This document shows positions 276 to 12,666 of a stretch of 58,843 nt of DNA, in pieces. Source of the DNA: Rhodospirillales bacterium (GTDB lineage Bacteria > Pseudomonadota > Gammaproteobacteria > Nevskiales > Nevskiaceae); contig CAJCJH010000070.1 in the NCBI GenBank assembly GCA_903970615.1, positions 1 through 58,843 on the forward strand. Reading direction: 5' to 3'. Made by a program: the position numbers and the translations under genes. The notes under the pieces are model-generated. The model worked only from the letters and a program-made list of their open reading frames with translations. It was not told where the DNA came from and did not search any database. Numbering within the stretch: the stretch's first letter is position 1; each line of letters starts with the position of its first letter.

Positions 276-1385
276 ATGGGCACCGCTAGAAAAGCTCGCG
301 CAGCCGTTGTTCGCAAAACCGGTGCGCCGTGGACAATCGAGGATGTCGAAGTTGCTGCACCACGCGAAGACGAAGTGCTGGTTCGCATGGTCGGCACCGG
401 GATTTGCCACACTGATATTGCCTGTCGAACCGGCTTTCCGGTGCCGATGCCGATCGTGCTGGGCCACGAGGGCGCCGGAGTCATCGAAGAAGTGGGCGCC
501 AAGGTCACCGGGCTCAAGGCTGGCGATCATGTGGTGCTGAGCTTCGACTCCTGCGGCAAGTGCCACAACTGCGAGCAGCATCAGCCGGCTTACTGTTTCG
601 ACTTTTATCCGCGCAATCTGGCGGGTATGCGATCGGCGGACGGTTCAGCCACGGTAACCGAGGCTGGATTACCGCTCAACGCGGTGTTTTTTTGCCAGTC
701 CTCGTTTGCGACCTATGCAATCGCACGCGCGGTCAACACGATCCGGATCGATAAGGATCTGCCTCTCGAAATCATGGGGCCGCTTGGCTGCGGCATTCAG
801 ACCGGCGCCGGCGCTGCGGTCAACGCGCTCGGCGTGAAAGCGGGCGATTCCCTGGCGATCTTCGGCGGCGGCGCAGTCGGTTTGAGCGCCATGCTGGGTG
901 CGCGCGCAGTCAACGCCGGAACGGTGATCGTGGTCGAGCCCAATATCGCGCGCGGCAAGCTGGCGCTGGAACTGGGCGCGACGCATGTGATCAATCCGAA
1001 AGAAATCACCGATGTGCTGGCCGAGATCAAGCGGCTTTGCGGCGGCGTCAATTACGCGATCGACACCACGGGAATTCCAGCAGTGATGGGCGTGGCGATC
1101 GAAGCCTTGCTGCCGCGCGGCATGCTCGGTCTACTGGGCGTTCCGCCGCCGGATGCAACGCTGCCGGGGAACCTGTTCAGCATGCTGGTGCGCGGTGTTG
1201 GCGCGCGCTATATCGTCGAAGGCGATTCCGATCCGCAGGAATTCATTCCTCGCATGATCGGTTGGTACAAGGCCGGGAAATTTCCGTTCGATCGTCTGGT
1301 CAAGAAATTCCCGTTCGACCAGATCAACGAGGCCGCGCATGCCTCGGAGACGGGCGAGGTGATCAAGCCGGTACTGGTGTTTTAG
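276..1385 (+). CDS. zinc-dependent aryl/allyl-alcohol dehydrogenase (XylB/CymB/geraniol dehydrogenase type)
   Basis: A 369-residue medium-chain dehydrogenase predicted to oxidise a primary benzylic or allylic alcohol to the aldehyde with NAD+. Catalytic zinc ligands are visible at Cys44 (GICHTD), His64 (GHEGAG) and Cys172 (GCGIQTG). The structural-zinc cysteines are 93, 96, 99 and 107, and the dinucleotide fold is at about 194-203 (FGGGAVGL). The GCGIQTG form is typical of the benzyl-alcohol dehydrogenase branch. The start is fixed by GAGGAG at 264-269, six bases before ATG. It converges on the XylM-like hydroxylase gene, and the two share one terminator. In xylene and cymene pathways this enzyme type acts directly after such a hydroxylase. 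The substrate is inferred from family and neighbours only. Confidence 0.88.
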   Translation: MGTARKARAAVVRKTGAPWTIEDVEVAAPREDEVLVRMVGTGICHTDIACRTGFPVPMPIVLGHEGAGVIEEVGAKVTGLKAGDHVVLSFDSCGKCHNCEQHQPAYCFDFYPRNLAGMRSADGSATVTEAGLPLNAVFFCQSSFATYAIARAVNTIRIDKDLPLEIMGPLGCGIQTGAGAAVNALGVKAGDSLAIFGGGAVGLSAMLGARAVNAGTVIVVEPNIARGKLALELGATHVINPKEITDVLAEIKRLCGGVNYAIDTTGIPAVMGVAIEALLPRGMLGLLGVPPPDATLPGNLFSMLVRGVGARYIVEGDSDPQEFIPRMIGWYKAGKFPFDRLVKKFPFDQINEAAHASETGEVIKPVLVF

Positions 1386-1478: not shown

Positions 1479-2600
1479 TCAAGTGCCAACAGTGCGCAGA
1501 CCCTTTGGCCATTCGCTCTCCTGGCTGAACCAGTCTTCCCAGCCTGCAGCCAGATTTTGTTCGCGTGCCAATTTGCGTTCGCCCGGCGTTGCAAATTCCA
1601 TGTCCCAGCGCTTCAGCGCCGGCTTGATGATCATTTCATCCCAGACCGGCGGAATCAGCGCTGCCAGGAAGCAGACGAAAACACTTGGCAGCACGATGCC
1701 GTCGCGGTGCGGAATCAGCTTGTAATAAGGCTGATAGGAATTCATGTGGTGATCCGCATGATTGGTCAACTCGAAGCCGACCAGGCGGGTGACAGCGCCC
1801 AGATGGTTCCAGACATGGCGGCGGCCGACCGGCGTGCCCGGCACGCGGGTTTGACCGTAATGCTGGAAGTAGCTGAACGATTCGGTCCATACCTTCGCCA
1901 TGAACATGGCGGCGAGCACGCAGACCACGCCGACCGGGCCGGCGATCAGGAAAATGATGCTCTGGAACACCACTTGAAGCGCCACAATTTTCCAGACGCG
2001 ATGGCGCCAGTTCCAACCCGAAAGTCCACGCTTGCGCAGGGCTTCGCTCTCGGCGCGGAGCGCATACGAAATCGTGCCCCAGACAGCCTTCGGAGTGAAT
2101 TTGTAGATCGAGGTGCCGCGTGGCGCGGTGCTGAGGTCGTGCGGCGTCGACACATCGATATGGTGATAGATCACATGCTCGATATCGCGCATGCCGTCGA
2201 GCAAGGTGAACTGTGCATAGCGGCCGACGGTGCGGGTCAGCGGGGTGCGGGCGTGAAACATTTCGTGCTGCGCGGCGATGCCGGGCACCAGCGCCAGCCA
2301 GCCGCAGGTCAGCGTGCCACCGAGCAGCTGCCAGCCGGTGAGCTGCTCGATATGGATGCGCCAGGCGAATGCGAGGAACATCACAATCGGACCCATCGAC
2401 CCGAGCCAGACCGGAACGGCGGCCCAGAACACCGAATTCATTTTGCGCACGCTGAAATCGCGCGGCAAAACAAAATCCAGGAAGGTCACCACAAAGAAGG
2501 TGCTGAAGCCCAGCCAGACCCAATCTCCGCCGAGCACGAAGCCGGCAAGTCCGGCCGCCAACAATAACGTCGCCGCGTAATATTTCAGATAGTCGTTCAT
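1479..2600 (-). CDS. XylM/CymAa-type membrane diiron methyl hydroxylase (AlkB superfamily)
   Basis: A 373-residue integral-membrane non-haem diiron monooxygenase, predicted to hydroxylate a methyl group on an aromatic or cyclic hydrocarbon. The histidine boxes are in family order: QHEMFH (His112/116), EHVIYHH (His142/146/147), the FQHYG motif at about 245-249, and NHADHH (His281/284/285). Hydrophobic stretches fill residues 8-45, 55-115 and 205-235. From recall, the N-terminus (GGDWVWLG, LPRDFS.RK) and the C-terminus (PSLFVCF-like, ATPGER) match xylene monooxygenase XylM more closely than long-chain AlkB. Length (about 370) also fits XylM. ATG at 2600 is chosen because GAGGAG lies six bases upstream; an in-frame extension to 2663 has no such support. 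No XylA-like reductase is seen in the window, so electrons must come from elsewhere. Confidence 0.85.
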   Translation of the reverse strand: MNDYLKYYAATLLLAAGLAGFVLGGDWVWLGFSTFFVVTFLDFVLPRDFSVRKMNSVFWAAVPVWLGSMGPIVMFLAFAWRIHIEQLTGWQLLGGTLTCGWLALVPGIAAQHEMFHARTPLTRTVGRYAQFTLLDGMRDIEHVIYHHIDVSTPHDLSTAPRGTSIYKFTPKAVWGTISYALRAESEALRKRGLSGWNWRHRVWKIVALQVVFQSIIFLIAGPVGVVCVLAAMFMAKVWTESFSYFQHYGQTRVPGTPVGRRHVWNHLGAVTRLVGFELTNHADHHMNSYQPYYKLIPHRDGIVLPSVFVCFLAALIPPVWDEMIIKPALKRWDMEFATPGERKLAREQNLAAGWEDWFSQESEWPKGLRTVGT

Positions 2601-2700
2601 CTCATGCTCCTCAACAGTTGTTTCAACGGGGACACCGCATGTGCAGATCCCCGCAAGCCTCATTCGTCACTCGTCACTCGTCACTCGTTGCTTGCGGCTT

Positions 2701-2729
2701 ACTATAGTATGGGGCCATACAAAAGTCAG
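2701..2729 (-). promoter_or_regulatory. promoter of the XylM-like gene with operator site A in its spacer
   Basis: Read on the minus strand, CTGACT (2729-2724) and TATAGT (2706-2701) are separated by exactly 17 bp. That spacer contains the palindrome GTATGG-CC-CCATAC (2707-2720, perfect hexamer arms), which abuts the -10 box. The start codon is about 100 bp downstream. The same palindrome type occurs at 7998, 12643 and 13265. Its position is that expected for a repressor site. Confidence 0.7.
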
Positions 2730-2764
2730 CCCGTTCGCGTGCATTTCAATCATTCGTCAAGCGG

Positions 2765-3667
2765 CTAGCGCATCGGCCCGACCAGAGGCACTTCCTTGGG
2801 TTTCTGGCAGGGTTTGGTCGCGCAGCCGCGCGCGATCAGCATCGTATCGTCAGCCTGATCTTCTTCATCAACTCCCGCGCCTGGCGTTGTTACTTCATCC
2901 AGCGCGAAAAGTGCGGCACCGAGAGCGCCGGCAATTTGCGGGTCGGGCGGCAGCAGCAGCTTGGCGCCGAGTGCCTGTTCGATGAATTGCACCGCGGCTT
3001 TGTTCTTGGCGACACCGCCCGTCATCACTGCCGGTTCACGCATGCCGACGCGTGCCACCAGGCCGACGGTGCGGCTGGCGATGGCCGCATGCACCGCACC
3101 CAGCACGGACGGCTTCGATTGCCCTTCCGCCAGCAGCGAAATCACTTCGGTTTCGGCGAAGGTCGCACACATGTTCGAGATCGTCAGCTTCTCGGTTGCG
3201 GCCAGCGCCATCGGCCCCATTTCTTCGAGCGGAACCTGCACCGCACGCGCCAGTGCTTCGAGAAACTTGCCGGTGCCGGCGGCGCAGCGATCGTTCATGG
3301 CGAATTGGGAAACCAGCCCATCGCCGCCGACCGCGATGACTTTACTGTCCTGCCCGCCGATGTCGATCACCAGGCGCGCCTGCGGAAACAGCGCCACCGC
3401 GCCGCGGGCGTGGCAGGTGATTTCGGTATACGACTGGTCCGCGATATCGATCATGCGGCGACCATAGCCGGTGCTGACCGCGCGCAGGATTTCCTTCCTG
3501 CTGATGCCGGCTTCCGCCAGCGCGCCATCCATCGAAACCTGCACGCCTTCCGCGCTGATCGAGCCCTTGCTGGCAACGCAGGCAGCAACCATCTTGCCTT
3601 TCAGATCCAGAATCACCGTCTTGGTGGTGGTGGAACCGAAGTCCACACCCATTACGTAATTCTTCAT
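2765..3667 (-). CDS. acyl-CoA dehydratase activase / BadF-BcrA-HgdC family ATPase
   Basis: A 300-residue ASKHA-fold ATPase with a bridging [4Fe-4S] cluster. This family injects an electron at very low potential into 2-hydroxyacyl-CoA dehydratases or benzoyl-CoA reductases at the cost of ATP. Seen: phosphate-binding GSTTTK at 11-16, GGQDSK at 104-109, Cys128 in DRCAAGTG and Cys167 in NMCATF, which match the two cluster-ligand positions of HgdC. Only one activator gene is present, which suits the homodimeric HgdC type; class I benzoyl-CoA reductases use two different subunits. RBS AGGAAG precedes the ATG. It is the third gene of the dehydratase operon, 39 bp after the B-like subunit. Confidence 0.9.
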   Translation of the reverse strand: MKNYVMGVDFGSTTTKTVILDLKGKMVAACVASKGSISAEGVQVSMDGALAEAGISRKEILRAVSTGYGRRMIDIADQSYTEITCHARGAVALFPQARLVIDIGGQDSKVIAVGGDGLVSQFAMNDRCAAGTGKFLEALARAVQVPLEEMGPMALAATEKLTISNMCATFAETEVISLLAEGQSKPSVLGAVHAAIASRTVGLVARVGMREPAVMTGGVAKNKAAVQFIEQALGAKLLLPPDPQIAGALGAALFALDEVTTPGAGVDEEDQADDTMLIARGCATKPCQKPKEVPLVGPMR

Positions 3668-3706
3668 GCTCGCTTCCTCGCTGGATTCGCCAGCGCGCTG
3701 TTCACG

Positions 3707-5053
3707 TTATGCGGCGATGCCGACGCGCTTGCGCGCCTCGATCGATTCCAGCATGGCTTCGATACGGCTGTTGACGAGTTCGTCCTTGTAGAACGATTCG
3801 TCGACCATGTCGCCTTCGATCATCGCCACCGGTAGCCCGAGCCGTTTCTGCACAGCGTCGGCGATCAGATATTGTGGATTGGAAAACGCCCGGCAGGTGC
3901 GCGCCGCATGCAGCACCATGCCGTCGATTTCGTAGTGTTTGCACAGCTTGATGATCTGCTCGATCATCAGTGGCGCCGACAGATTGATCGGACAGACCAG
4001 ATAGTTCACCGCCATGCCTTCGAGCGGATCGTTCAGATCGATCGACTCGTGCTCGTGCCAGAAACCCATGTGCGTATAGCGTCCGGCGACCATATTGGCA
4101 TCGTAGTTTGCAAACTTGTTGGCGAGCCAGCCGATCTTGTTCCAGTTCATGATGCCATCCCAGAACAGACGATATTTTTCCTGCGGAATGCCACCTTCGT
4201 TATCGGCGATACGCTGTACGATTTCAGCCTTGGTCTTCTCGAAATACTCGACGATACCAGGGCCGCCAGGAATGAAATTCACCGGCGCCAGGCTGGTCGT
4301 CCAGTCGAAGAAACTCGCCGGCGCCGGCTTGGCATTGCAAAGCTCCATCGCTTCCATGCGCAGCCGGCCGGCGGTCTTGGTGTAAGACATGATTTCGCCG
4401 AGGCTGTCCCAGTTGTACTTCTTGCCGGTCTGCTCCTCGATGAACTTGGTGCAGGCGCGCAGCTGCTTGACCATGTACTGCTTGGCCTCGTTGAATTCCG
4501 TACCGCCCAGATAAATCGCATCCGGTTTGTTGCCCCAGACCCAAGGCACCGAGATGTTGAAGATCGGCACTTTCTTGCCGAACAGGCGGAACAGCATTTC
4601 GTCCCACTGCTGGCCGGTCGAGCAATACGGATAGGCGCTGATGAACATATCCGGCGCGGGAATGCGTTCGCCCAGTTTGCCGGCGCCGAGCGCATCCGAA
4701 AAACTCGAACCGGAAGCTTCCACGCCGCGATTCTGCGCCAGCACGCCGCAGCCGATGTGCGTGCGTGCGTAAGAGCAAAGCTCCTTCATGTAGCCGCGAT
4801 GCTCGGCAGCGGTCTGCGCTTCCTGCTCGTTGTTGCGCGCCGCCAGCAGTGCCGACCAGGCTTCGCCATGCACCCAGCGGATGTCCGCCGCCTGCATCAG
4901 CGGATTGATCGCAACGCCTTCGTACCAGCAGACCAGCTTGCCTTCGGCCTTGGCATTGAAAACGTCGGTCCAGTAATCGTTGACCATCTTGTTATTGAGC
5001 GAAGAGGTCTTCAGCCGGTTGGCTTTTTTCAGCGGTTGGGCAATGGCATTCAT
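3707..5053 (-). CDS. 2-hydroxyacyl-CoA dehydratase / benzoyl-CoA reductase-like subunit (HgdB/BcrB type)
   Basis: A 448-residue subunit of the HgdB/BcrBC family, which carries a [4Fe-4S] cluster and performs ketyl-radical elimination of water or reductive dearomatisation of a CoA thioester. Candidate cluster or active-site cysteines are Cys93, Cys102, Cys144 (YPYCSTGQQ) and Cys387 in HAARTCRAFSNPQ, the last being a family signature near the C-terminus, followed by EGDMVDESFY. The length fits the larger subunit of such heterodimers. The ATG overlaps the stop of the preceding subunit gene by 4 bp (ATGA), so the two are probably translationally coupled at equal amounts. The substrate cannot be told from sequence. 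A strictly anaerobic type of enzyme is unexpected beside an oxygenase. Confidence 0.85.
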   Translation of the reverse strand: MNAIAQPLKKANRLKTSSLNNKMVNDYWTDVFNAKAEGKLVCWYEGVAINPLMQAADIRWVHGEAWSALLAARNNEQEAQTAAEHRGYMKELCSYARTHIGCGVLAQNRGVEASGSSFSDALGAGKLGERIPAPDMFISAYPYCSTGQQWDEMLFRLFGKKVPIFNISVPWVWGNKPDAIYLGGTEFNEAKQYMVKQLRACTKFIEEQTGKKYNWDSLGEIMSYTKTAGRLRMEAMELCNAKPAPASFFDWTTSLAPVNFIPGGPGIVEYFEKTKAEIVQRIADNEGGIPQEKYRLFWDGIMNWNKIGWLANKFANYDANMVAGRYTHMGFWHEHESIDLNDPLEGMAVNYLVCPINLSAPLMIEQIIKLCKHYEIDGMVLHAARTCRAFSNPQYLIADAVQKRLGLPVAMIEGDMVDESFYKDELVNSRIEAMLESIEARKRVGIAA

Positions 5054-6222
5054 GCTGCGATTCTCCGGGCGGCGGACTGGCGTTTGACGACTTCGAGAAA
5101 AGTTTCCACACGAGTCCTGAGCCCTTCAAACGAGTTCAGCTCGTGCTCGGTTTCGATCAACAGATGCGGCACGCCGCGCTTCTCGAAAGCTTCCTTGATT
5201 TCGGGGTAGTAATACATATGCGGCTCGCAGAACTTCGCCATCAGCACGATCATGCCGTCGGCGCGCGAGCGCTCCATCGCATCGAGCAGATAATTTTCCC
5301 AATCGGCGTTTTGATCGACGCGCGTCGGGCAGGGCACCTTGAGATTGCGTTCGAGATACCACTTCGCCAATGCATCGAGCGGATCGCCGGTTTCATCGAC
5401 ATCGGTCGAGATATAACGCTGACCGTGATACAGATCGTCGTCGACGACGATGCCGCCGCATTCCTCGATCATGTCGAGCACGCCGATCTTCGGCGATTGA
5501 CAGAAATGGCCGGACAAATAAACCCGCATGCCACGCTGCGAAATCGCCTTGGTCTTTTCGATTTCGGCGAGCAATCGTCCGAGCAGATCGTTGTGCGCCG
5601 CCTTGTCCATCACCATGCTGGATTTCACCAGAATCTGCATCTGCTTGGCAGTGATCCGTGCATCGCCGGCGCGGCGCAGGTCGTACAGTTTGCGCAGCAG
5701 CTGACGGTTCTTGTTGAACAAGCGAATGCTGGCATGCGTGGCTTCTTCGTCGATCGGATGGCCGATCATTTCTTCGAGACCTTCCTTCAGATTCAGAAAA
5801 GTTTCGCGCGCGCGGCCCAAGCTCCACGGGTCGCTCATCGACGAGATCAATTGATAAAAATGCACGCGCGTATTCGGCAGCTTGGCGCGCACCACGTCGG
5901 CCGCGCCGAGCACCTGCACGCAGTGATCGCCGAACATTATCGCATCGAGAAAATCGTAATCGCCCTTGCAGGCCTGATCGACCACGCTGCGCGTGAAGCC
6001 GCAGTAAAACGGGTAGATCATGCCGTGCCCGACCGTGATCGGTTCGTGATTTTCCTGCAAGATCACCGGCAGGCAGCCTGCGGCATGCGCCAGTTCGCCC
6101 GGAAAGTGCATGGGAAACGAGCCGACCACTCGCGTTCCGTGCGTCTGTTTCCAGGCTTTGGCGCTTTCCAGCGGCTGTTCCGCCGCCCTTTCAAAGGCGC
6201 TGTAAATCGCGTCGATGGACAT
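5050..6222 (-). CDS. 2-hydroxyacyl-CoA dehydratase / benzoyl-CoA reductase-like subunit (HgdA/BcrC type)
   Basis: A 390-residue partner subunit of the dehydratase. Likely cluster cysteines are Cys74 (YPFYCGFTRS), Cys101 (GDHCVQ) and Cys332 (AKFCEPHMYYYPEI), the last being a strong BcrC/HgdA-family signature followed by GVPHLLIETEHE. An in-frame ATG exists at 6282, but it is rejected. A near-consensus promoter lies at 6282-6254, downstream of it, and the ATG at 6222 has GAGGAGAAG about a dozen bases upstream. It is the first gene of a three-gene operon with the partner subunit (4-bp overlap) and the activase. It is divergent from tetR, whose product probably controls it. Confidence 0.85.
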   Translation of the reverse strand: MSIDAIYSAFERAAEQPLESAKAWKQTHGTRVVGSFPMHFPGELAHAAGCLPVILQENHEPITVGHGMIYPFYCGFTRSVVDQACKGDYDFLDAIMFGDHCVQVLGAADVVRAKLPNTRVHFYQLISSMSDPWSLGRARETFLNLKEGLEEMIGHPIDEEATHASIRLFNKNRQLLRKLYDLRRAGDARITAKQMQILVKSSMVMDKAAHNDLLGRLLAEIEKTKAISQRGMRVYLSGHFCQSPKIGVLDMIEECGGIVVDDDLYHGQRYISTDVDETGDPLDALAKWYLERNLKVPCPTRVDQNADWENYLLDAMERSRADGMIVLMAKFCEPHMYYYPEIKEAFEKRGVPHLLIETEHELNSFEGLRTRVETFLEVVKRQSAARRIAA

Positions 6223-6253
6223 TTTTTTTGGCTTCTCCTCATTGTGTTTCTGA

Positions 6254-6282
6254 ATCATATGAAGACACTTCATTAAAGTCAA
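6254..6282 (-). promoter_or_regulatory. dehydratase operon promoter with putative TetR operator in the spacer
   Basis: On the minus strand TTGACT (6282-6277) and TATGAT (6259-6254) are 17 bp apart, a near-consensus sigma-70 promoter. The spacer region contains ATGAAG-TGT-CTTCAT (6273-6259), a perfect 6-bp inverted repeat with a 3-bp centre. The predicted transcript start near 6247 leaves a leader of about 25 nt with the GAGGAG ribosome site. A closely related palindrome lies at 6359-6373 on the tetR side. Confidence 0.75.
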
Positions 6283-6358
6283 CCGGAATGCTGGGTAAAT
6301 ATTCTTCAGAAATCTTAAAACTGCATAAAATATAGCGTATCAATCGGATTTAACAAAA

Positions 6359-6373
6359 ATGAAGTCAGTTCAT
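6359..6373 (+). promoter_or_regulatory. second putative TetR operator, covering the tetR start codon
   Basis: ATGAAG-TCA-GTTCAT repeats the dehydratase-promoter palindrome ATGAAG-ACA-CTTCAT with the same arms (ATGAA/TTCAT), and the downstream AAAGT is shared too. The first three bases are the proposed tetR start codon. A weak TTAAAA-17-TATCAA promoter (6315-6343) would start transcription about 9 nt upstream, so the site would act as a roadblock in autorepression. Confidence 0.55.
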
Positions 6374-7099
6374 AAAGTGCTGGAAAATCCCCGAGGCGTG
6401 CTGAAAAACTCAACGTCGCGCAAGCCGGCCCAGCGCCGTTCGGCAGACGATCGCAGTGCCGATATCCTCGCCGCGGCACGCGCGGTGATCGCCGAGCAGG
6501 GCTACGAAAAAACCTTGATCGCAGATATCGCGCGGCGCGCCGGCGTGGTCGACGGCACCATCTATCGCTACTTTGAAAACAAGCGCGACCTGATGGTCAA
6601 GGTGGCGGAAGTCTGGTTCGGTGAGCAGCTGCTGATGGACTCGCATCTCGATTCGATTCACGGCACGCAGAACAAGCTGCGGCATCTGGCCTGGCGCACG
6701 CTCAGCATCGTTCGCCGCGAGCCAGTGCTTGCGCGTTTCATGCTGATGGAATTGCGGCCGGACCCGAACTATCGCAACTCGCCGTTCTTCGAGATGAACC
6801 GCAAATTCACCCACGAAGTGCTGCAGGTTTGCCGCGATGCGATCGCCAGCGGCGAATTCGTCAACGATATCTCGCCGAACATGCTGCGCGACATGCTGCA
6901 TGGCTGCATCGAACACCGCACCTGGGCGTTTCTGCGCGGCGAGGGTGATTTCGATATCGACGAAGTGGCGGACGGCATTGCCAAGCTGATCTATCGCGGC
7001 ATGCTGGCGCAGACGCCGGCGACGCGCAGCGACGTTGAAGCCGCCGTGGCCCGCATCGAAGAAGTCGCATCAAAACTGGAACGCAAGCTTCAATCGTAA
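6359..7099 (+). CDS. TetR-family transcriptional regulator
   Basis: A 246-residue TetR/AcrR regulator. The N-terminal helix-turn-helix is at about residues 32-78 (ILAAARAVIAEQGY, IARRAGVVDGTIYRYFENKRDL), followed by a helical ligand domain. The N-terminal extension of about 30 basic residues is longer than usual, and no clear ribosome site precedes the ATG, so the start may be near-leaderless or further in. It is divergent from the dehydratase operon, and the intergenic region has two copies of one palindrome. That is the typical layout of a local autoregulated repressor. The ligand is probably an acyl-CoA or pathway intermediate (inference). Confidence 0.85.
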   Translation: MKSVHKVLENPRGVLKNSTSRKPAQRRSADDRSADILAAARAVIAEQGYEKTLIADIARRAGVVDGTIYRYFENKRDLMVKVAEVWFGEQLLMDSHLDSIHGTQNKLRHLAWRTLSIVRREPVLARFMLMELRPDPNYRNSPFFEMNRKFTHEVLQVCRDAIASGEFVNDISPNMLRDMLHGCIEHRTWAFLRGEGDFDIDEVADGIAKLIYRGMLAQTPATRSDVEAAVARIEEVASKLERKLQS

Positions 7100-7141
7100 T
7101 GCCGCTTCAAAACGATTGATTCAATACTGATCCATGAGCAC

Positions 7142-7939
7142 TTAGCCAGCCGAAACGCCACCGTTCACGCTGATCGTCTGACCGGTTAAACGACCGGCCG
7201 CCGGGCTGGCGAGGAATACGATCAGCGCGGCCAGATCCTCGGGTTTGGCCACGCCGAGATGCGCCATCGGCACGATTTTCTCGAATAGCTTGGCGCTGAA
7301 TCCGGACGCCTGATTGCGCTTCGCCGTCGGCGTGCCTTCGATCAGCGACGGCGTCAATACGTTGACGCGCACGCCGAAGCGCTTGGCTTCCATCGCCAGC
7401 GTGCGCGAAAAAATCACGATCGCCGACATCGCAGCGCCGATGATCGTCTCGCCCGGCGTCGGCACTTTGGCGGCGTCCGAGGCGATGTTGACGATGACGC
7501 CGCCTTTGCGTTCGCGCATCAGCGGCAGCACCAGCCGGCACATCAGCATCGGCGCCATTACCGTTTGCAGCATGATCGGGCCGATGTCTTCGATCGGCGT
7601 TTTATCCAGCGGCTCCGGCGTATAAAGGCCGATGGTCGCATTGACCAGAATGTCGATACTGCCGACGTCGGCTTGAGCCTGCGCGACGATGCGCTGCGCC
7701 TGTGAAACTTCATTGGCATCGCCCTGAATGAAGGCAACCTGCGTCTGCGGCGCCACTGCGAGCAAAGCCTGCCGCGCCGCTTCACCGCGCTCCGTATTGC
7801 GGCCGACCAAGCCGATTCGCCGGACTCCAGCTTGCGCCAGCTGAATCGCGGTGGCGAGGCCCACGCCCGAAGTTCCTCCGGTAATCAGGGCACCGCTGTC
7901 GGCAAAGGAATGGACAACGATCTTGGCGCTGCTGGTCAT
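7142..7939 (-). CDS. short-chain dehydrogenase/reductase-like protein without the catalytic Tyr-Lys pair
   Basis: A 265-residue Rossmann-fold SDR. The cofactor motif TGGTSGVG is at about 21-28, and the NNAG motif is changed to VNATIG. The catalytic Ser is kept (NIASD), but where the family has YxxxK the sequence reads IIGAAMSAI, so Tyr is replaced by Ile and Lys by Met. The C-terminus (GQTISVNGG) is normal for a classical SDR. It may bind a nucleotide without catalysing normal redox chemistry, or use other residues. It is divergent from the aldehyde dehydrogenase across a 155-bp region carrying operator site B, and its stop is 42 bp from that of convergent tetR. Confidence 0.8.
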   Translation of the reverse strand: MTSSAKIVVHSFADSGALITGGTSGVGLATAIQLAQAGVRRIGLVGRNTERGEAARQALLAVAPQTQVAFIQGDANEVSQAQRIVAQAQADVGSIDILVNATIGLYTPEPLDKTPIEDIGPIMLQTVMAPMLMCRLVLPLMRERKGGVIVNIASDAAKVPTPGETIIGAAMSAIVIFSRTLAMEAKRFGVRVNVLTPSLIEGTPTAKRNQASGFSAKLFEKIVPMAHLGVAKPEDLAALIVFLASPAAGRLTGQTISVNGGVSAG

Positions 7940-7997
7940 GGCGATTAAATAACGTGGACGTTAGAGTGAATGCCGGAATTTCTTGTAGCACAAACAA

Positions 7998-8011
7998 GTA
8001 TTGTACCGTAC
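7998..8011 (+). promoter_or_regulatory. operator site B (GTATTG-TA-CCGTAC)
   Basis: A 14-bp inverted repeat of the GTATKG-N2-CCRTAY type, 84 bp before the aldehyde dehydrogenase start and 59 bp before the divergent SDR start. TTGTAC (8002-8007) and TATCGG, 17 bp apart, could form a promoter overlapping it, though the -10 is weak. The six bases after the palindrome, CATCTG, are the same as at site D. Confidence 0.6.
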
Positions 8012-8094
8012 CATCTGCTGGCGTATCGGGCTCGGGCACGTTTTCAATCGCAGACCCGACGACAACAGTAGCAATAAGAATCATGGAGGAAGTC

Positions 8095-9546
8095 ATGCAA
8101 ACGCAGGAACAGACACATCACCAGAATTTCTATATCGATGGCCAATGGTCGAAGCCGACCACGGCGAATCGCATCGATGTTATCGGCGCTAATACCGGGC
8201 AGATCATCGGCAGCGTGCCCGATGGCGCAGAAGCCGATATCGACAAGGCGGTGCTCGCCGCGCGTCGCGCACTCGATGGCGGCTGGGCGGATAGCGCGCC
8301 GTCGGAACGCGCGGCGATACTGAATAAATTTGCCGACAGTCTCGAAAAACGCGCCAAACAGCTGACCCGCGCGGTGAGCATGCAAAACGGCATGCCGCTG
8401 AGTCTGGCGGAAGCGTTTGAAGGCGGTTATGTCGTCGGTATGGTGCGTTACTACGCCGCACTCACCGCCGCGCTGGTAACTGAAGAACGGCGCCATTCAC
8501 CGATGGGTTTCGACACCATCGTACGGCGTGCGCCGGTTGGTGTGGTCGGCGGGATCGTGCCGTGGAATTATCCGGTGGTGCTGTCGATGATGAAGATCGG
8601 CCCGGCGCTCGCGTCTGGCAGCACCATCGTGCTGAAGCCGTCGCCGGGCACGGTACTGGATTGTTATGTCGTCGCCGAAGCCGCAGCGGAAGCCGGCATT
8701 CCGGCCGGCGTCATCAACTGGGTTCCGGGTGGCCGCGAACTCGGCGCTTATCTGGTTTCGCATCCCGGTATCAACAAGGTTGCCTTCACCGGTTCCACCG
8801 CGGCTGGACGCAAGATCGGCGAAATCTGTGGACGCCTGCTGCGGCCGGTGAGCCTCGAACTCGGCGGCAAATCGGCCGCGATCATTCTCGACGACGCCAG
8901 GATGGAAGACGTACTCAACGGCATGCTGTTCGCCTCGTTTGCCAACAATGGCCAGACCTGCGCGATCTCCACGCGCATTCTCGCGCCGGCCAAACGCTAC
9001 GACGAAATCGTCGACGCGATCGCCGGCATGGCGTCCGGTCTCAAGGTCGGCAACTCGCTCGACCTGGAAACGCAGGTCGGTCCGCTGGCTTCGTCGGAAC
9101 ATCGCACGCGCGTCGAAAGCTATATCGCCAAGGGCAAGACCGAAGGCCGCCTGGTCGCCGGTGGCGGACGGCCGAAGAATGTCGATGGCGGCTGGTTCGT
9201 CGAGCCGACGGTGTTCGCCGATGTTTCCAACAAGGCGACCATCGCGCAGGAGGAAATTTTCGGGCCGGTGCTGTCGATCATCAAGTATCAGGACGACGAA
9301 GACGCGGTGAAGATCGCCAACGATTCCGAGTTCGGACTCGGCGGTACGGTATGGTCGTCGGACAGCAAGCACGCGCAGAGCATCGCGCGCCGTGTGCAAA
9401 CGGGCACCATCGGCGTCAATGGTTATGTGATCGACCTGGCCTCGCCGTTTGGCGGCGTCAAGGCCAGCGGTCTGGGGCGTGAACTCGGGCCGGAATCGAT
9501 CGCGGCGTATCAGCAGTTGCAGTCGATCTATCTGCCGGCCGGCTAA
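8095..9546 (+). CDS. NAD(P)+-dependent aldehyde dehydrogenase
   Basis: A 483-residue aldehyde dehydrogenase oxidising an aldehyde to the acid. The general base Glu255 lies in LELGGKSAA and the nucleophile Cys289 in NNGQTCAIS. PWNYPVV and the cofactor-loop GSTAAGRKIG are also present, and the C-terminal FGGVKASGLGRELG is intact. Length is normal for the family. ATG 8095 is chosen because GGAGGA lies at 8086-8091; upstream in-frame codons cross the operator region. In context it would take the aldehyde made by the aryl/allyl-alcohol dehydrogenase, as XylC or CymC do. Specificity is not readable from the sequence. Confidence 0.9.
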   Translation: MQTQEQTHHQNFYIDGQWSKPTTANRIDVIGANTGQIIGSVPDGAEADIDKAVLAARRALDGGWADSAPSERAAILNKFADSLEKRAKQLTRAVSMQNGMPLSLAEAFEGGYVVGMVRYYAALTAALVTEERRHSPMGFDTIVRRAPVGVVGGIVPWNYPVVLSMMKIGPALASGSTIVLKPSPGTVLDCYVVAEAAAEAGIPAGVINWVPGGRELGAYLVSHPGINKVAFTGSTAAGRKIGEICGRLLRPVSLELGGKSAAIILDDARMEDVLNGMLFASFANNGQTCAISTRILAPAKRYDEIVDAIAGMASGLKVGNSLDLETQVGPLASSEHRTRVESYIAKGKTEGRLVAGGGRPKNVDGGWFVEPTVFADVSNKATIAQEEIFGPVLSIIKYQDDEDAVKIANDSEFGLGGTVWSSDSKHAQSIARRVQTGTIGVNGYVIDLASPFGGVKASGLGRELGPESIAAYQQLQSIYLPAG

Positions 9547-9570
9547 AAACCAGCGCCGCCTTGAGTTTTC

Positions 9571-9606
9571 AAAAACCGCCGCTGCCAAAAAGTAGCGGCG
9601 TTTTTA
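9571..9606. terminator. intrinsic terminator after the aldehyde dehydrogenase
   Basis: CGCCGCT (9577-9583) pairs with AGCGGCG (9594-9600), followed by TTTTTATT and preceded by AAAAA. It can serve both the plus-strand ALDH and transcripts arriving from the opposing acyl-CoA synthetase. Confidence 0.85.
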
Positions 9607-9714
9607 TTGCAGAGGCAAGCTGATTTCAGCGCCTGGATTATCGAGTCAATTGCGCCGATGGCGGCAAAGTTCGGCAACTTATCAATCGATGTTCAATCGA
9701 TCTGCAAGCAAGAT

Positions 9715-9737
9715 ATTATCGATGATGGATCGATAAT
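9715..9737. repeat. ATCGAT-rich inverted repeat in a convergent intergenic region
   Basis: ATTATCGAT and ATCGATAAT form a perfect 9-bp inverted repeat with spacer GATGG. Further ATCGAT words lie at about 9684 and 9696, so the whole 9607-9804 stretch (198 bp, no gene) is built of this word. It lies downstream of both flanking genes, so a promoter role is unlikely. Confidence 0.6.
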
Positions 9738-9804
9738 CTCCCGAAAGGTTATCGGGCATCAATCGAACATTCAATCCCGGTAAAGCGCTGCTGAATCTTT
9801 CAGC

Positions 9805-11763
9805 TCAAGCGTCAACGATTTCAATACTGGTTTGAAATTCATAATCGCGGAATGCGGCTTTCAGCGCCTGTTCGATCTTCGTTGCTTCTGCGGTTGCGAC
9901 ACTCGCCCGAATCACCGCGCGCGGCCGCAAGCCGCTTTCGTCGACCGTCACTTCAGCATGGCCGCTGCTGCCGATTACGCGTGTCGCAACCTCGTGGGCA
10001 ACCCGCTGCAGGGTTTGCATGCGCAACACCGGCTTGTTGATTTTGCCGACCGCGGTCATCGGCATTTTATCGATGCTCAGAATTTCCACCGGCACCGCTG
10101 CACGTTCCTCGACGCGCTTCTTGCAGAGATCGAGCAGTTCCGCGCTGCTGACCTGCATGCCTTCCTTCAGTTGCACGAAGGCGATCGGCATTTCGCCCTT
10201 GGCCGCGTCGGGCCGGCCGATCGCGGCGGCAATCTGCACTGCGGGATGACACACCAGCACTTCCTCGATCATCTTCGGATCGATGTTGTGGCCGCCGCGA
10301 ATGATGACGTCCTTGGCGCGGCCAAAAATCCAGACGAAGCCTTTGTCGTCGACAGTGCCGACGTCGCCAGTGTTCGCCCAGCGTTTGCCATCCGGCATGC
10401 CGGTGACAAAAAATTCCGCATCGACTTGCGGATCGACATAGCCCGGAATCACGCCGACGCCACCGATCACCAACACGCCGCGTTCGCCCGGCGCGCACTC
10501 GCGCACGAAGCGGTTATCGCCATCGACCAGCACGGCCTTCACCTGATGCCAGGGCACGACGCGGCCGACCGAACCGGCTACCGGCTCGGTGCCGTCATCC
10601 GGATGAATCGTCACCATGCCGTGAATTTCGGTCATGCCCCACAGCTCGCGTAGCCAGATGCCGAAACGCGCATGAAAGCCGCGCAGCAATTCCACTGGAA
10701 TAGTGCTGCCGCCGCAGTTGAAGGTCTGGATGCAATGACCTTCCGCATCCGCGTTGGGCGCCGACAAAATCGCAGCCGCTGTCGCCGGCGTTGCGATCAG
10801 CGAAGTCATCCGATAACGCCGCGCGATGCCCCAGAAATTTTTGATCACGCCCGGATTGCGGAAGCCGTCGGCGGTGAGCGTGAGCACAGTCTGGCCGTGA
10901 AGGACCGCGCGTAGCGAGATGATGACGCCGCCGCCGACATGAAAATTCGGCATGGCATGGCCGACCACGCCATCGCGCTGTGCGCCGGCGTGCGCGCCCA
11001 TCGTCCAGGCAGCGAGCAGTTGTCCGCGGTGGGTCATGCGTACCAGCTTCGGTGCCGCGGTGGTGCCACCGGTGGGCAGGTAAGTGGCCTCGGCATGCGG
11101 ATCGGTATTCGGCGCAAATGCCAGCCCTGCCGGCTGCGCGGTTACTGCGGTCCGGAAATCATTCGACGTGTCTTGCGAATCGACGATCAGAACCTTGCGC
11201 AGCGTCGGCACGAGGCCGGTCAGTTGTTCGAGCTTGTCCCAGACTCCGGCGCCATGCTTGTTCGTCGTCGTTACCAGCACGGTAGTTTTTGCGGCATTCA
11301 TGATGCCTGCGACTTGCCGCACTTCAAGGTAGGGATTGATCGGATTGCCGATGCCCGCGGTGGCCGCGCCCCAGCCGGCGATCAGGGCTTCCGGCAGCAT
11401 TGGCAGAATGATCGAAACGACTGCTGGCGCATCGCCGGAAAGTGCGCGGAACAGATTGGCCGAGCGCTCGATGCCATCGAGCAATTCGCGGTAGGCAATG
11501 ATCCGCGGCGCGAATTCCGGGTCCGGCGAAAGCAGGTAAATGAATGCAGGTTTTTGCGGCTCCAGCGCCGCTGCGGCGCGAATACATTCGTATAACGTGC
11601 GGCCCGGAAACAAGTAATCGGGATCGATCTTTTCAACTGCGCGGATGTCGGCCACCGAGCGGATATTGCCGCGCGCCAAAGTGCCTGCCGCGGGTGCGCC
11701 ATTTTCCAGCCAGGGAGAAGTGGCGTGGTTCACTTGCTGCGCAGCGCTGCGAGTCAACATCAT
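9805..11763 (-). CDS. AMP-forming acyl-CoA synthetase (ANL superfamily)
   Basis: A 652-residue adenylate-forming ligase predicted to convert a carboxylic acid, ATP and CoA to acyl-CoA. Seen in order: phosphate loop YLPTGGTTAAPK at about 228-239, the ATP motif WGMTE at about 380, GDVGTVDDKGF, GRAKDVIIRGGHNI, and the C-terminal lysine in GKINKP. A tail of about 70 residues follows the usual end (VTVDESGLRPRAVIRASV onward); it may be an extra small domain. The ATG overlaps the stop of the upstream membrane-protein gene (ATGA), so the pair is coupled and under operator site C. It probably activates the acid made by the aldehyde dehydrogenase. Confidence 0.87.
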   Translation of the reverse strand: MMLTRSAAQQVNHATSPWLENGAPAAGTLARGNIRSVADIRAVEKIDPDYLFPGRTLYECIRAAAALEPQKPAFIYLLSPDPEFAPRIIAYRELLDGIERSANLFRALSGDAPAVVSIILPMLPEALIAGWGAATAGIGNPINPYLEVRQVAGIMNAAKTTVLVTTTNKHGAGVWDKLEQLTGLVPTLRKVLIVDSQDTSNDFRTAVTAQPAGLAFAPNTDPHAEATYLPTGGTTAAPKLVRMTHRGQLLAAWTMGAHAGAQRDGVVGHAMPNFHVGGGVIISLRAVLHGQTVLTLTADGFRNPGVIKNFWGIARRYRMTSLIATPATAAAILSAPNADAEGHCIQTFNCGGSTIPVELLRGFHARFGIWLRELWGMTEIHGMVTIHPDDGTEPVAGSVGRVVPWHQVKAVLVDGDNRFVRECAPGERGVLVIGGVGVIPGYVDPQVDAEFFVTGMPDGKRWANTGDVGTVDDKGFVWIFGRAKDVIIRGGHNIDPKMIEEVLVCHPAVQIAAAIGRPDAAKGEMPIAFVQLKEGMQVSSAELLDLCKKRVEERAAVPVEILSIDKMPMTAVGKINKPVLRMQTLQRVAHEVATRVIGSSGHAEVTVDESGLRPRAVIRASVATAEATKIEQALKAAFRDYEFQTSIEIVDA

Positions 11764-12560
11764 TGCGCTACCGCGGCTTTCATCGGGCGCGAACGCTGTG
11801 TTGCGAAGCCTGGCATTGCTGGCAGGAAAGACGCCGCGCCGCGGATCAAGGTGAGCGATGCGATGAGGCTGATGAGCGTTGCCAGCAGCACCAGGACCGG
11901 CGAGGGCTTATCCAGATGCAAGGCGATGATGACGGCGGACCCAGCGCCAAAATTCGCCAAATAAAACGTGCAAGGGAACAGCACGAACAAGCCGAGCAGC
12001 CCCAGCGCGCTATCGACCCGCTGCCGCAATTGCGCCGCCGCGACGCTGAAGCAGATCACCTGTGCGGTTTCGAGCACGCCGATAATCAAGGGATAATTGA
12101 ACATGCGGAAAACGTGTGGACCCCAATAGGTATAGGCGCCGCCGTTGATACCGATCATCTCGAACGCCGCCGACATCGCCAGTTCCACTACAGCCCAGAC
12201 ATACAAGCCTTTGCGGCTCAGACGGCCCTGCTGGATCTGTGCGCAGATGAAAACCGCGGGCAGCGCGTAGAGCACGGCATAACCGCTATGCGTCCACAGC
12301 GGCTGCGGAATCCCGAAGGCGGAAAAATGCGACCAGATTCCGGGCACATAAAACAGCAGCATGAAGCCTTCGTCGTACAGCGGCTCGGCGAACGCGGCGA
12401 TCATCGATGCGAGCACCACATAAACATAGAACGGCGTCCGTTCGATCACTCCTTTGCGCACGGTATAGGCCAGCAGCGTAAAGGTCAGCACCCAACTCCC
12501 ATAAGTCATGACGCTCTGGGTGGCCAGATTCAAAGGATGATCGTAAGGCGCGGTCAACAT
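11760..12560 (-). CDS. polytopic membrane protein of unknown function
   Basis: A 266-residue protein with about seven hydrophobic segments. The more polar conserved-looking stretches are FAEPLYDEGF and FEMIGINGGAYTYWGP. The latter, with acidic and Gly/Tyr residues between membrane helices, loosely recalls carotenoid-type membrane cyclases/hydratases, but I cannot assign a family. ATG 12560 is preceded by GGAGGAGAGCC; an extension to 12653 would run through the promoter and operator C and is rejected. It is translationally coupled to the acyl-CoA synthetase, so it may take part in uptake or in processing of the same acid or hydrocarbon. Confidence 0.75.
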   Translation of the reverse strand: MLTAPYDHPLNLATQSVMTYGSWVLTFTLLAYTVRKGVIERTPFYVYVVLASMIAAFAEPLYDEGFMLLFYVPGIWSHFSAFGIPQPLWTHSGYAVLYALPAVFICAQIQQGRLSRKGLYVWAVVELAMSAAFEMIGINGGAYTYWGPHVFRMFNYPLIIGVLETAQVICFSVAAAQLRQRVDSALGLLGLFVLFPCTFYLANFGAGSAVIIALHLDKPSPVLVLLATLISLIASLTLIRGAASFLPAMPGFATQRSRPMKAAVAQ

Positions 12561-12636
12561 GGCTCTCCTCCTGCGTAACGGCTGTCGGCTTATGCGGGCA
12601 GTGGGGTGGCGCCCGGTTGCAGCGTTTGCTTTTACG

Positions 12637-12666
12637 ATTATCGTACGGACCAATACGATTACTCAA
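12637..12666 (-). promoter_or_regulatory. promoter of the membrane protein-acyl-CoA synthetase operon with operator site C
   Basis: On the minus strand TTGAGT (12666-12661) and GATAAT (12642-12637) are 18 bp apart. The spacer holds GTATTG-GT-CCGTAC (12656-12643), which abuts the -10 box, the same arrangement as site A. The start codon lies about 83 bp downstream. Confidence 0.7.

Follow-up and report, generated by a model that had tools for sequence, protein, structure and literature searches.

Radical enzymes of the benzoyl-CoA reductase/2-hydroxyacyl-CoA dehydratase (BCR/HAD) family have been described in anaerobes and facultative anaerobes, and oxygen sensitivity is very marked in them. 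Several described pathways share some of their steps with the locus reported here: the lower pathway of the TOL plasmid proceeds by ring dioxygenation, the aerobic hybrid CoA pathways box and paa use an epoxidase and pass through the CoA thioester of a ring acid, and tert-butanol is degraded through a monooxygenase, an alcohol dehydrogenase, an aldehyde dehydrogenase, a ligase and then a B12-dependent mutase. We analysed contig CAJCJH010000070.1 of a Nevskiaceae genome (hereafter the window, one whole contig of 58,843 bases from an assembly of 3.17 Mb with a rated completeness of 98%), in which a BCR/HAD subunit pair and its activase are encoded next to a membrane di-iron hydroxylase of the AlkB/XylM family. 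This pairing of an oxygenase with a radical enzyme recurs in relatives and points to an uncharacterised mixed breakdown route.

The HadC-like (beta) subunit, the HadB-like (alpha) subunit, the activase and the hydroxylase are encoded consecutively on the minus strand; the first two genes overlap by 4 bases, and gaps of 39 and 101 bases follow. A preliminary description of this DNA had grouped the two subunits and a single activase with the hydroxylase, an alcohol dehydrogenase (ADH), an aldehyde dehydrogenase (ALDH) and a CoA ligase, and all of these genes were recovered at their positions by gene calls and by Pfam and NCBIfam scans of chosen genes rather than of every neighbour. That description left out a short-chain dehydrogenase/reductase (SDR) and a TetR regulator, which belong to the same unit. 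It was right about the single activase, which is the sole PF01869 match found in the host genome and scores similarly against MbdQ (219 bits) and HadI (211 bits).

Conservation of this arrangement was followed in the host genome and 60 relatives. A HadB-like protein was present in 8 of these 61 genomes, and a hydroxylase ortholog (at least 78% identity) was found in exactly the same eight; the next hydroxylase homologues reached at most 57% identity, and some homologue (E ≤ 0.001) occurred in 55 of the 61. Together with Solimonas aquatica these genomes gave nine Nevskiales loci with a close HadB, compared with flanks of about 10 kb, of which the closest named one lies in a Hydrocarboniphaga assembly (93% identity), a resemblance by which the window itself would fall in the Nevskiales. 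All nine keep the order HadC-HadB-activase-hydroxylase on one strand, and because order and strand are kept throughout, the grouping is more than chance. The hydroxylase directly follows the activase in three loci (the window, L018 and L020), while a MarR-type gene stands between them in three (L015, L022 and L023; one of these genes was scanned) and an opposite-strand ADH in the other three (L017, L021 and L024). TetR was found in eight of the nine, the 5 kb contig of the ninth ending before it, and SDR in six. The linkage proposed in the preliminary description thus holds in relatives for the hydroxylase, and the remaining enzymes are attached more loosely: ADH in 6/9 loci (74–78% identical in five of the other eight), ALDH in 5/9 (70–91% identical in four of the other eight) and a close ligase in 4/9. 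The protein at 11760–12653 was found in six, the window included. As a separate observation, XylM/AlkB-type hydroxylase homologues of about 50% identity are numerous in the relatives, with up to 13 per genome in G021, G030 and others.

The hydroxylase shares about 40% identity with XylM of the TOL plasmid, and its histidine boxes, identified by eye as HEMFH, HVIYHH, QHYG and NHADHH, were read against what we take to be the AlkB/XylM family motif. In seven actinobacterial loci a second type of oxygenase takes its place. Scanning genome contigs for the HadB-like protein, we obtained 76 loci from the best 80 of 93 relatives, and these, the window and three further relatives make up 80 loci (85 clade pairs less 5 that repeat a named record), several of which share a genome and hence are not independent. 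A cytochrome P450 was found in 7 of the 80, in Rhodococcus, Rhodococcoides, Nocardia, Nocardioides and Pseudonocardia, by a clustering of heuristically picked genes that may miss members and from which one cluster, taken as an antisense shadow of HadC, was left out. The P450 of the Rhodococcus jostii locus L060, to which the other six are 67–97% identical, matched P450tol (7v40, 681 bits) and then P450terp (1cpt, 464 bits) in the PDB, and is grouped with a [2Fe-2S] ferredoxin, a ferredoxin reductase, an ADH and an ALDH. A Sphingopyxis macrogoltabida plasmid carries the radical pair together with, at a distance of about 40 kb, a gene annotated as alkane 1-monooxygenase whose product is 49% identical to the window's hydroxylase and is grouped with an ALDH, a 2Fe-2S protein, an ADH and a P450; the host encodes, on another contig, a XylA-like reductase with 50% identity to the plasmid's. 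XylM-type and P450tol/P450terp-type oxygenases presumably act on ring methyl groups. Judged by these resemblances, two unrelated hydroxylase types, both similar to ring-methyl hydroxylases, appear to be linked to the module in two phyla.

The preliminary description had called for a phylogeny of the two subunits, and this placed the pair outside the HAD clade of fermenters. The trees, made by a quick method and with long branches, comprised the window and 17 of the 85 clade pairs, with 14 reference rows for beta and 13 for alpha; three long references were trimmed and a third alpha sequence of R. jostii was left out. The HAD references were a Fusobacterium pair (HadB model 439 bits against a cut-off of 750) and HadBC of PDB 3o3m; for Bcr we paired a BcrC scoring above its cut-off with the neighbouring BcrB, located by BLAST; for Bzd, an Aromatoleum pair above the cut-offs; further Bzd and Mbd pairs were named by resemblance, and the Mbd reference pair scores below the BcrB/BcrC cut-offs. 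In both trees the clade stood apart from HAD, BCR plus Mbd and Bzd (SH-aLRT 99 for beta and 94, just below 95, for alpha), grouping neither with HadBC/HgdAB nor with Bcr, Mbd or Bzd, and the mean identity of its rows to these references was 21–28%. The pair forms a deep branch of its own in the BCR/HAD family, its exact place being unsure. An amino-acid-fermentation enzyme, considered as a candidate, was ruled out by the trees and the gene context; separation from the fermenter enzymes fits both a reductase and a dehydratase. Since Bzd pairs and this pair occur together in the same Aromatoleum genomes, the latter is not a simple substitute for benzoyl-CoA reductase.

Membership of the family is indicated by two HGD-D subunits, each with three cluster cysteines, by the active-site Glu and by a BcrAD-type activase. 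According to PMC11971306, which describes BzdNO, the alpha ligands there are Cys95, Cys128 and Cys380, with Glu65 and His131 catalytic, and BzdN carries a six-cysteine double cubane where the second HAD subunit has a [4Fe-5S] remnant. Counted over 86 rows (the window and 85 clade pairs, in window numbering), the three alpha cluster cysteines and Glu64 were conserved in 86/86, and the beta ligands Cys94, Cys121 and Cys352 in 85, 86 and 86 rows; beta positions count from a TTG start, the ATG at 6222 being a plausible start. The position of HadB Ser37, which we assume to have an active-site role, is Gly in all 86, and the reductases show Ala, Gly or Pro there. Beta Cys261 lies in a GxFC motif (85/86) that is common to BcrC (5/5) and MbdN (1/1) and was not found in HadC, HgdB or BzdN. 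BzdO His131 was tried as a reductase marker and dropped, as MbdO and BcrB lack it like the clade. Compared with HadBC/HadI and HgdAB, the clade is alike in fold, three-cysteine alpha site, Glu55 equivalent and single activase, but it is separate, about 25% identical, has the Gly and the additional beta Cys261, and is found with ligases and sometimes oxygenases. It resembles the class I benzoyl-CoA reductases (Bcr, Mbd, Bzd) in fold, in the Glu and Tyr of the alpha site and in ligase context, with Bcr and Mbd sharing the beta motif.

The preliminary description had allowed for an aerobic or a facultative host, and the genome appears to be that of an aerobe. Four tests on the incomplete assembly found two COX1-family genes, no NarG match, no POR gamma-domain match and RnfC matches far below cut-off (35.5 against 246 bits), hence no full RnfC.

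Taken together, these data lead us to propose tentatively, at somewhat short of even confidence, that an oxygen-dependent upper pathway feeds a radical enzyme that reduces a cyclic acyl-CoA; the gene content, the conserved linkage and ligands, the separate clade and the operator-like sites are observed, and the substrate, step order, reaction and electron donor are inferred. The AlkB/XylM-type hydroxylase would oxidise a methyl group, probably on a ring, ADH and ALDH would convert the hydroxylated methyl to a carboxylate, and the ligase would form its CoA thioester. The activase, probably a homodimer, would use ATP hydrolysis to drive a low-potential electron into the alpha-beta pair, the alpha subunit, with its three-cysteine [4Fe-4S] site beside the catalytic Glu, would act on the thioester, and the SDR may oxidise a hydroxyl arising on rehydration, before ring opening. 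Such a route would share with the TOL upper pathway (XylM, XylB, XylC) and the P450terp and P450tol systems a methyl hydroxylase with aryl-alcohol-type and aldehyde dehydrogenases; unlike TOL it would join the hydroxylase to CoA activation and a radical enzyme in place of ring dioxygenation, and the XylA-like reductase of the host is not on the same contig. With box and paa it would share a ring-acid CoA thioester within aerobic catabolism, PaaX-type regulators being near in 26/80 loci, the BCR/HAD pair replacing their epoxidase. We slightly favour ring reduction over dehydration of a tertiary 2-hydroxyacyl-CoA because both oxygenase types resemble enzymes whose ring-carboxylate products have no 2-hydroxyl; further support comes from the GxFC motif, from the replacement of Ser37 and from the ADH, whose best PDB matches were 5tnx (379 bits, unspecified) and then benzyl alcohol dehydrogenase 1f8f (345 bits). 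The hybrid route suggested in the preliminary description gains from the conserved linkage, the aerobic-looking host and the unrelated hydroxylase with the same module in another phylum. The most far-reaching reading is doubtful in our estimate: an aerobic, Birch-type, ATP-driven reduction of a ring acyl-CoA directly after O2-dependent methyl hydroxylation, by a fifth BCR/HAD lineage that survives or is shielded from oxygen.

Several observations weigh against ring reduction. There is one activase, as in HAD and DCCP, where known benzoyl-CoA reductases use two, and the alpha subunit comes out slightly nearer HadB than any reductase in profile, PDB sequence and Foldseek comparisons. In structure models built from the window and 28 of the 85 pairs (mean pLDDT 88.5 for beta and 86.5 for alpha), the alpha subunit matched HadB at TM 0.81, MbdO at 0.79 and BzdO at 0.78, and the beta subunit matched BzdN, HadC and MbdN about equally (0.84–0.85). 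The six-cysteine double-cubane set of Bzd type is incomplete in beta: taking as its six columns those common to BzdN and the DCCP-like protein L108, two of the three putative distal cysteines are replaced, by Pro57 (85/86) and by an aromatic residue at 285 (Tyr in the window), and the third, Cys318, is kept in 86/86. Eighteen columns that separate HAD from BCR/Mbd are fixed in the clade, 4 of them as in HAD, 5 as in BCR/Mbd and 9 as in neither (3, 2 and 5 in alpha; 1, 3 and 4 in beta). A class III CoA-transferase, which we take to be of the HadA family, is near in 35/80 loci. Finally, with neither POR gamma nor a full RnfC found in the host, a steady flow of low-potential electrons is hard to explain.

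A HAD-type dehydratase in an aerobic pathway is less probable than not, though only slightly behind ring reduction. The oxygenase, ADH and ALDH would then yield a tertiary 2-hydroxy acid from a methyl group beside a tertiary carbinol, and after CoA activation the hydroxyl would be removed with one recycled electron, followed by beta-oxidation; oxidation to a 2-oxo acid is not open to a tertiary 2-hydroxy acid. The order parallels the tert-butanol route with a dehydratase in the place of the mutase, and the single activase, the HadB-like alpha subunit, the CoA-transferases and a beta subunit lacking the full double-cubane set, like HadC, all suit it, as does its low electron demand in such a genome. 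Conversely, no gene for making a 2-hydroxy acid was found, the pair falls outside the HAD clade, Gly replaces Ser37 in every row, the beta motif is BCR-like and the linked oxygenases resemble ring-methyl hydroxylases. The single activase and the fold are equally those of DCCP, and the pair could be a protective enzyme or a small-molecule reductase of DCCP type instead of a catabolic acyl-CoA enzyme; this we consider very improbable, given the two missing distal cysteines and the ligases, CoA-transferases, acyl-CoA dehydrogenases and hydratases that surround the genes.

Other points against ring reduction concern the oxygenase and its link to the radical enzyme. The hydroxylase matched two alkane monooxygenases and no other entries in the PDB, and its nearest annotated plasmid relatives are called alkane monooxygenases. 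The ADH on the other strand in three Nevskiales loci means that a single operon is not general. A second Hydrocarboniphaga copy (L079), 49% identical, has ligase, activase and SDR, and a hydroxylase of this type is absent from its locus. Across the 80 loci, 64 have neither oxygenase within reach, other oxygenase types not having been searched systematically. The radical enzyme, activase and SDR might be a mobile cassette for the catabolism of some carboxylate, possibly in use when oxygen is scarce, with the oxygenases as separate cargo of hydrocarbon islands. The variable ADH, ALDH and ligase, the gene intervening between activase and hydroxylase in 6/9 loci and a patchy spread are in keeping with this, and the direct adjacency of the hydroxylase in only 3/9 shifts a little weight to it from ring reduction. 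We nevertheless judge it unlikely, as the hydroxylase lies downstream of the activase in all nine Nevskiales loci and has no ortholog where HadB is absent, and as in another phylum an oxygenase of unrelated type is linked to the module.

The spread of the clade is patchy. By phylum the 76 loci comprise 40 from Actinomycetota, 35 from Pseudomonadota and one automatically labelled Cyanobacteriota, without a cyanobacterium in any record title. Many of the genera (Rhodococcus, Nocardia, Gordonia, Nocardioides, Amycolatopsis) are aerobes, and some (Aromatoleum, Paracoccus) are denitrifiers. Besides the 8/61 relatives above, the clade occurs in 4/201 genomes of the R. jostii family, R. jostii included, and in plasmids (13 matching records, 5 of them at 49–66% identity); viral contigs that were searched held no relative of the pair. 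Among 369 class members drawn evenly, 16 matched the BcrC model, 9 of them above cut-off, the rest being one BzdN-like protein, the window as a member of this clade and five outside the classification. Searching the 80 loci, all but the window fetched by HadB, with the window proteins by tblastn recovered HadB in 80 (by construction), HadC in 80, activase in 72, SDR in 68 (median identity 54%), ligase in 65 (median identity only 30%), TetR in 30, ADH in 23, ALDH in 16 and the hydroxylase in 9. Eight loci for which the heuristic gene picking had missed HadB are among the 80 with a tblastn match to it. SDR, the most constant partner of the radical pair after the activase, reached at least 40% identity in 64 loci; of these, 48 have it no more than 5 kb from HadB and 41 have it on the strand of HadB. 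An acyl-CoA dehydrogenase was near in 31 loci, counted like the P450, CoA-transferase and PaaX genes by clustering.

What emerges is a subfamily with intact cluster ligands, found mostly in aerobic genera and linked to monooxygenases in two separate groups, which raises the question of whether a respiring cell can sustain such radical chemistry, and with which substrate. If ring reduction is correct, it would amount to aerobic dearomatisation without ring dioxygenation; if a tertiary 2-hydroxy acid is dehydrated, to a bypass of a block in tertiary alcohol degradation. An oxygen-tolerant member, if there is any, would be a useful laboratory model. Among the papers listed from the open-access PMC library no title or abstract start dealt with this clade, which is weak evidence, as subscription papers lie largely outside that search.

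Two operator-like palindromes lie where the TetR and HadC-like genes diverge (Table 1): the first, from which the pattern TGAAN5TTCA is taken, is a proposed operator of the TetR regulator, and the second is at the TetR start. The pattern was derived from the window first, and recurrence in relatives is the only test of it. It was present in the TetR-HadC gap of all eight Nevskiales loci containing that gap and, in the roughly 20 kb loci of the seven relatives, was confined to it. Loci L020 to L095 hold 12 copies in 1.475 Mb, gap sites counted, and among all 80 loci one further locus (L095) has the pattern upstream of HadC. The window has 3 copies against 0.76 expected, a number reached in 4 of 100 shuffles; a looser pattern allowing two mismatches was no commoner than chance (24 found against 19.75 expected). 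No such site was found upstream of SDR, ALDH or ligase in the window, and joint regulation of the entire island is therefore not supported.

Table 1. Positions of the genes and palindromes of the island in the window
Feature	Coordinates	Strand	Basis or remark
Zn-dependent alcohol dehydrogenase (ADH)	276..1385	+	Pfam/NCBIfam scans, PDB sequence matches
Membrane di-iron hydroxylase, AlkB/XylM family, FA_desaturase fold	1479..2663	-	Domain scan, homologues
Activase, BcrAD_BadFG ATPase	2765..3667	-	Pfam PF01869
Alpha (HadB-like) subunit, HGD-D	3707..5053	-	Cysteines 93, 144, 387 and Glu64
Beta (HadC-like) subunit, HGD-D	5050..6282	-	Cysteines 94, 121, 352, plus 261 and 318
Palindrome TGAAGACACTTCA	6260..6272		Proposed (putative) TetR operator
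Second palindrome TGAAGTCAGTTCA	6360..6372		At TetR start
TetR/FadR-like regulator	6359..7099	+	Divergent from HadC-like gene
SDR oxidoreductase	7142..7939	-	Pfam/NCBIfam scans
Aldehyde dehydrogenase (ALDH)	8095..9546	+	StyD as top curated model at 420 bits, short of the 850-bit cut-off
AMP-forming acyl-CoA ligase (AMP-binding)	9805..11763	-	Pfam/NCBIfam scans
Protein without Pfam or NCBIfam match	11760..12653	-	Membrane nature judged by eye

Further along the window, 20 genes were scanned between 20464 and 58843, many of them catabolic: a 3-oxoacid CoA-transferase pair, a CitE-like lyase, acyl-CoA dehydrogenases, SDRs and an APH-type kinase, together with an MMPL transporter and a TonB receptor. 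In the R. ruber cluster a candidate BadI-like ring hydrolase was rejected, its score exceeding the cut-off for MenB (465 against 380 bits) and falling short of that for BadI (281 against 467.6 bits).

Several unusual arrangements of the family were also seen. Citricoccus zhacaiensis (L062, 8650–20668) has two facing HadC-HadB-activase sets within about 12 kb, and the 124 kb plasmid CP023455.1 of Rhodobacteraceae QY30 (L030 and L063) has three HadB-like matches. A Rhizobium leguminosarum plasmid (L099, 7977–13405) encodes a different HGD-D pair that fell into neither BCR nor HAD in the trees; two activase genes and a gene for an ABC substrate-binding protein accompany it, and a sulfate permease and a bile acid:sodium symporter are encoded nearby. 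In Aromatoleum (L107, 502–2565; L108, 415–2562) a protein of about 700 residues joins an activase domain to a double-cubane-type subunit and is followed by a very divergent HGD-D subunit. R. jostii has a third HGD-D pair (L129, 1222–2628; L132, 1396–2538) in which, on a weak alignment, the cluster cysteines are replaced by Tyr, Asp and Val in alpha and by Asp, Ser and Asp in beta; it lies beside a class III CoA-transferase recognised by eye and is perhaps a cluster-free member of the family.

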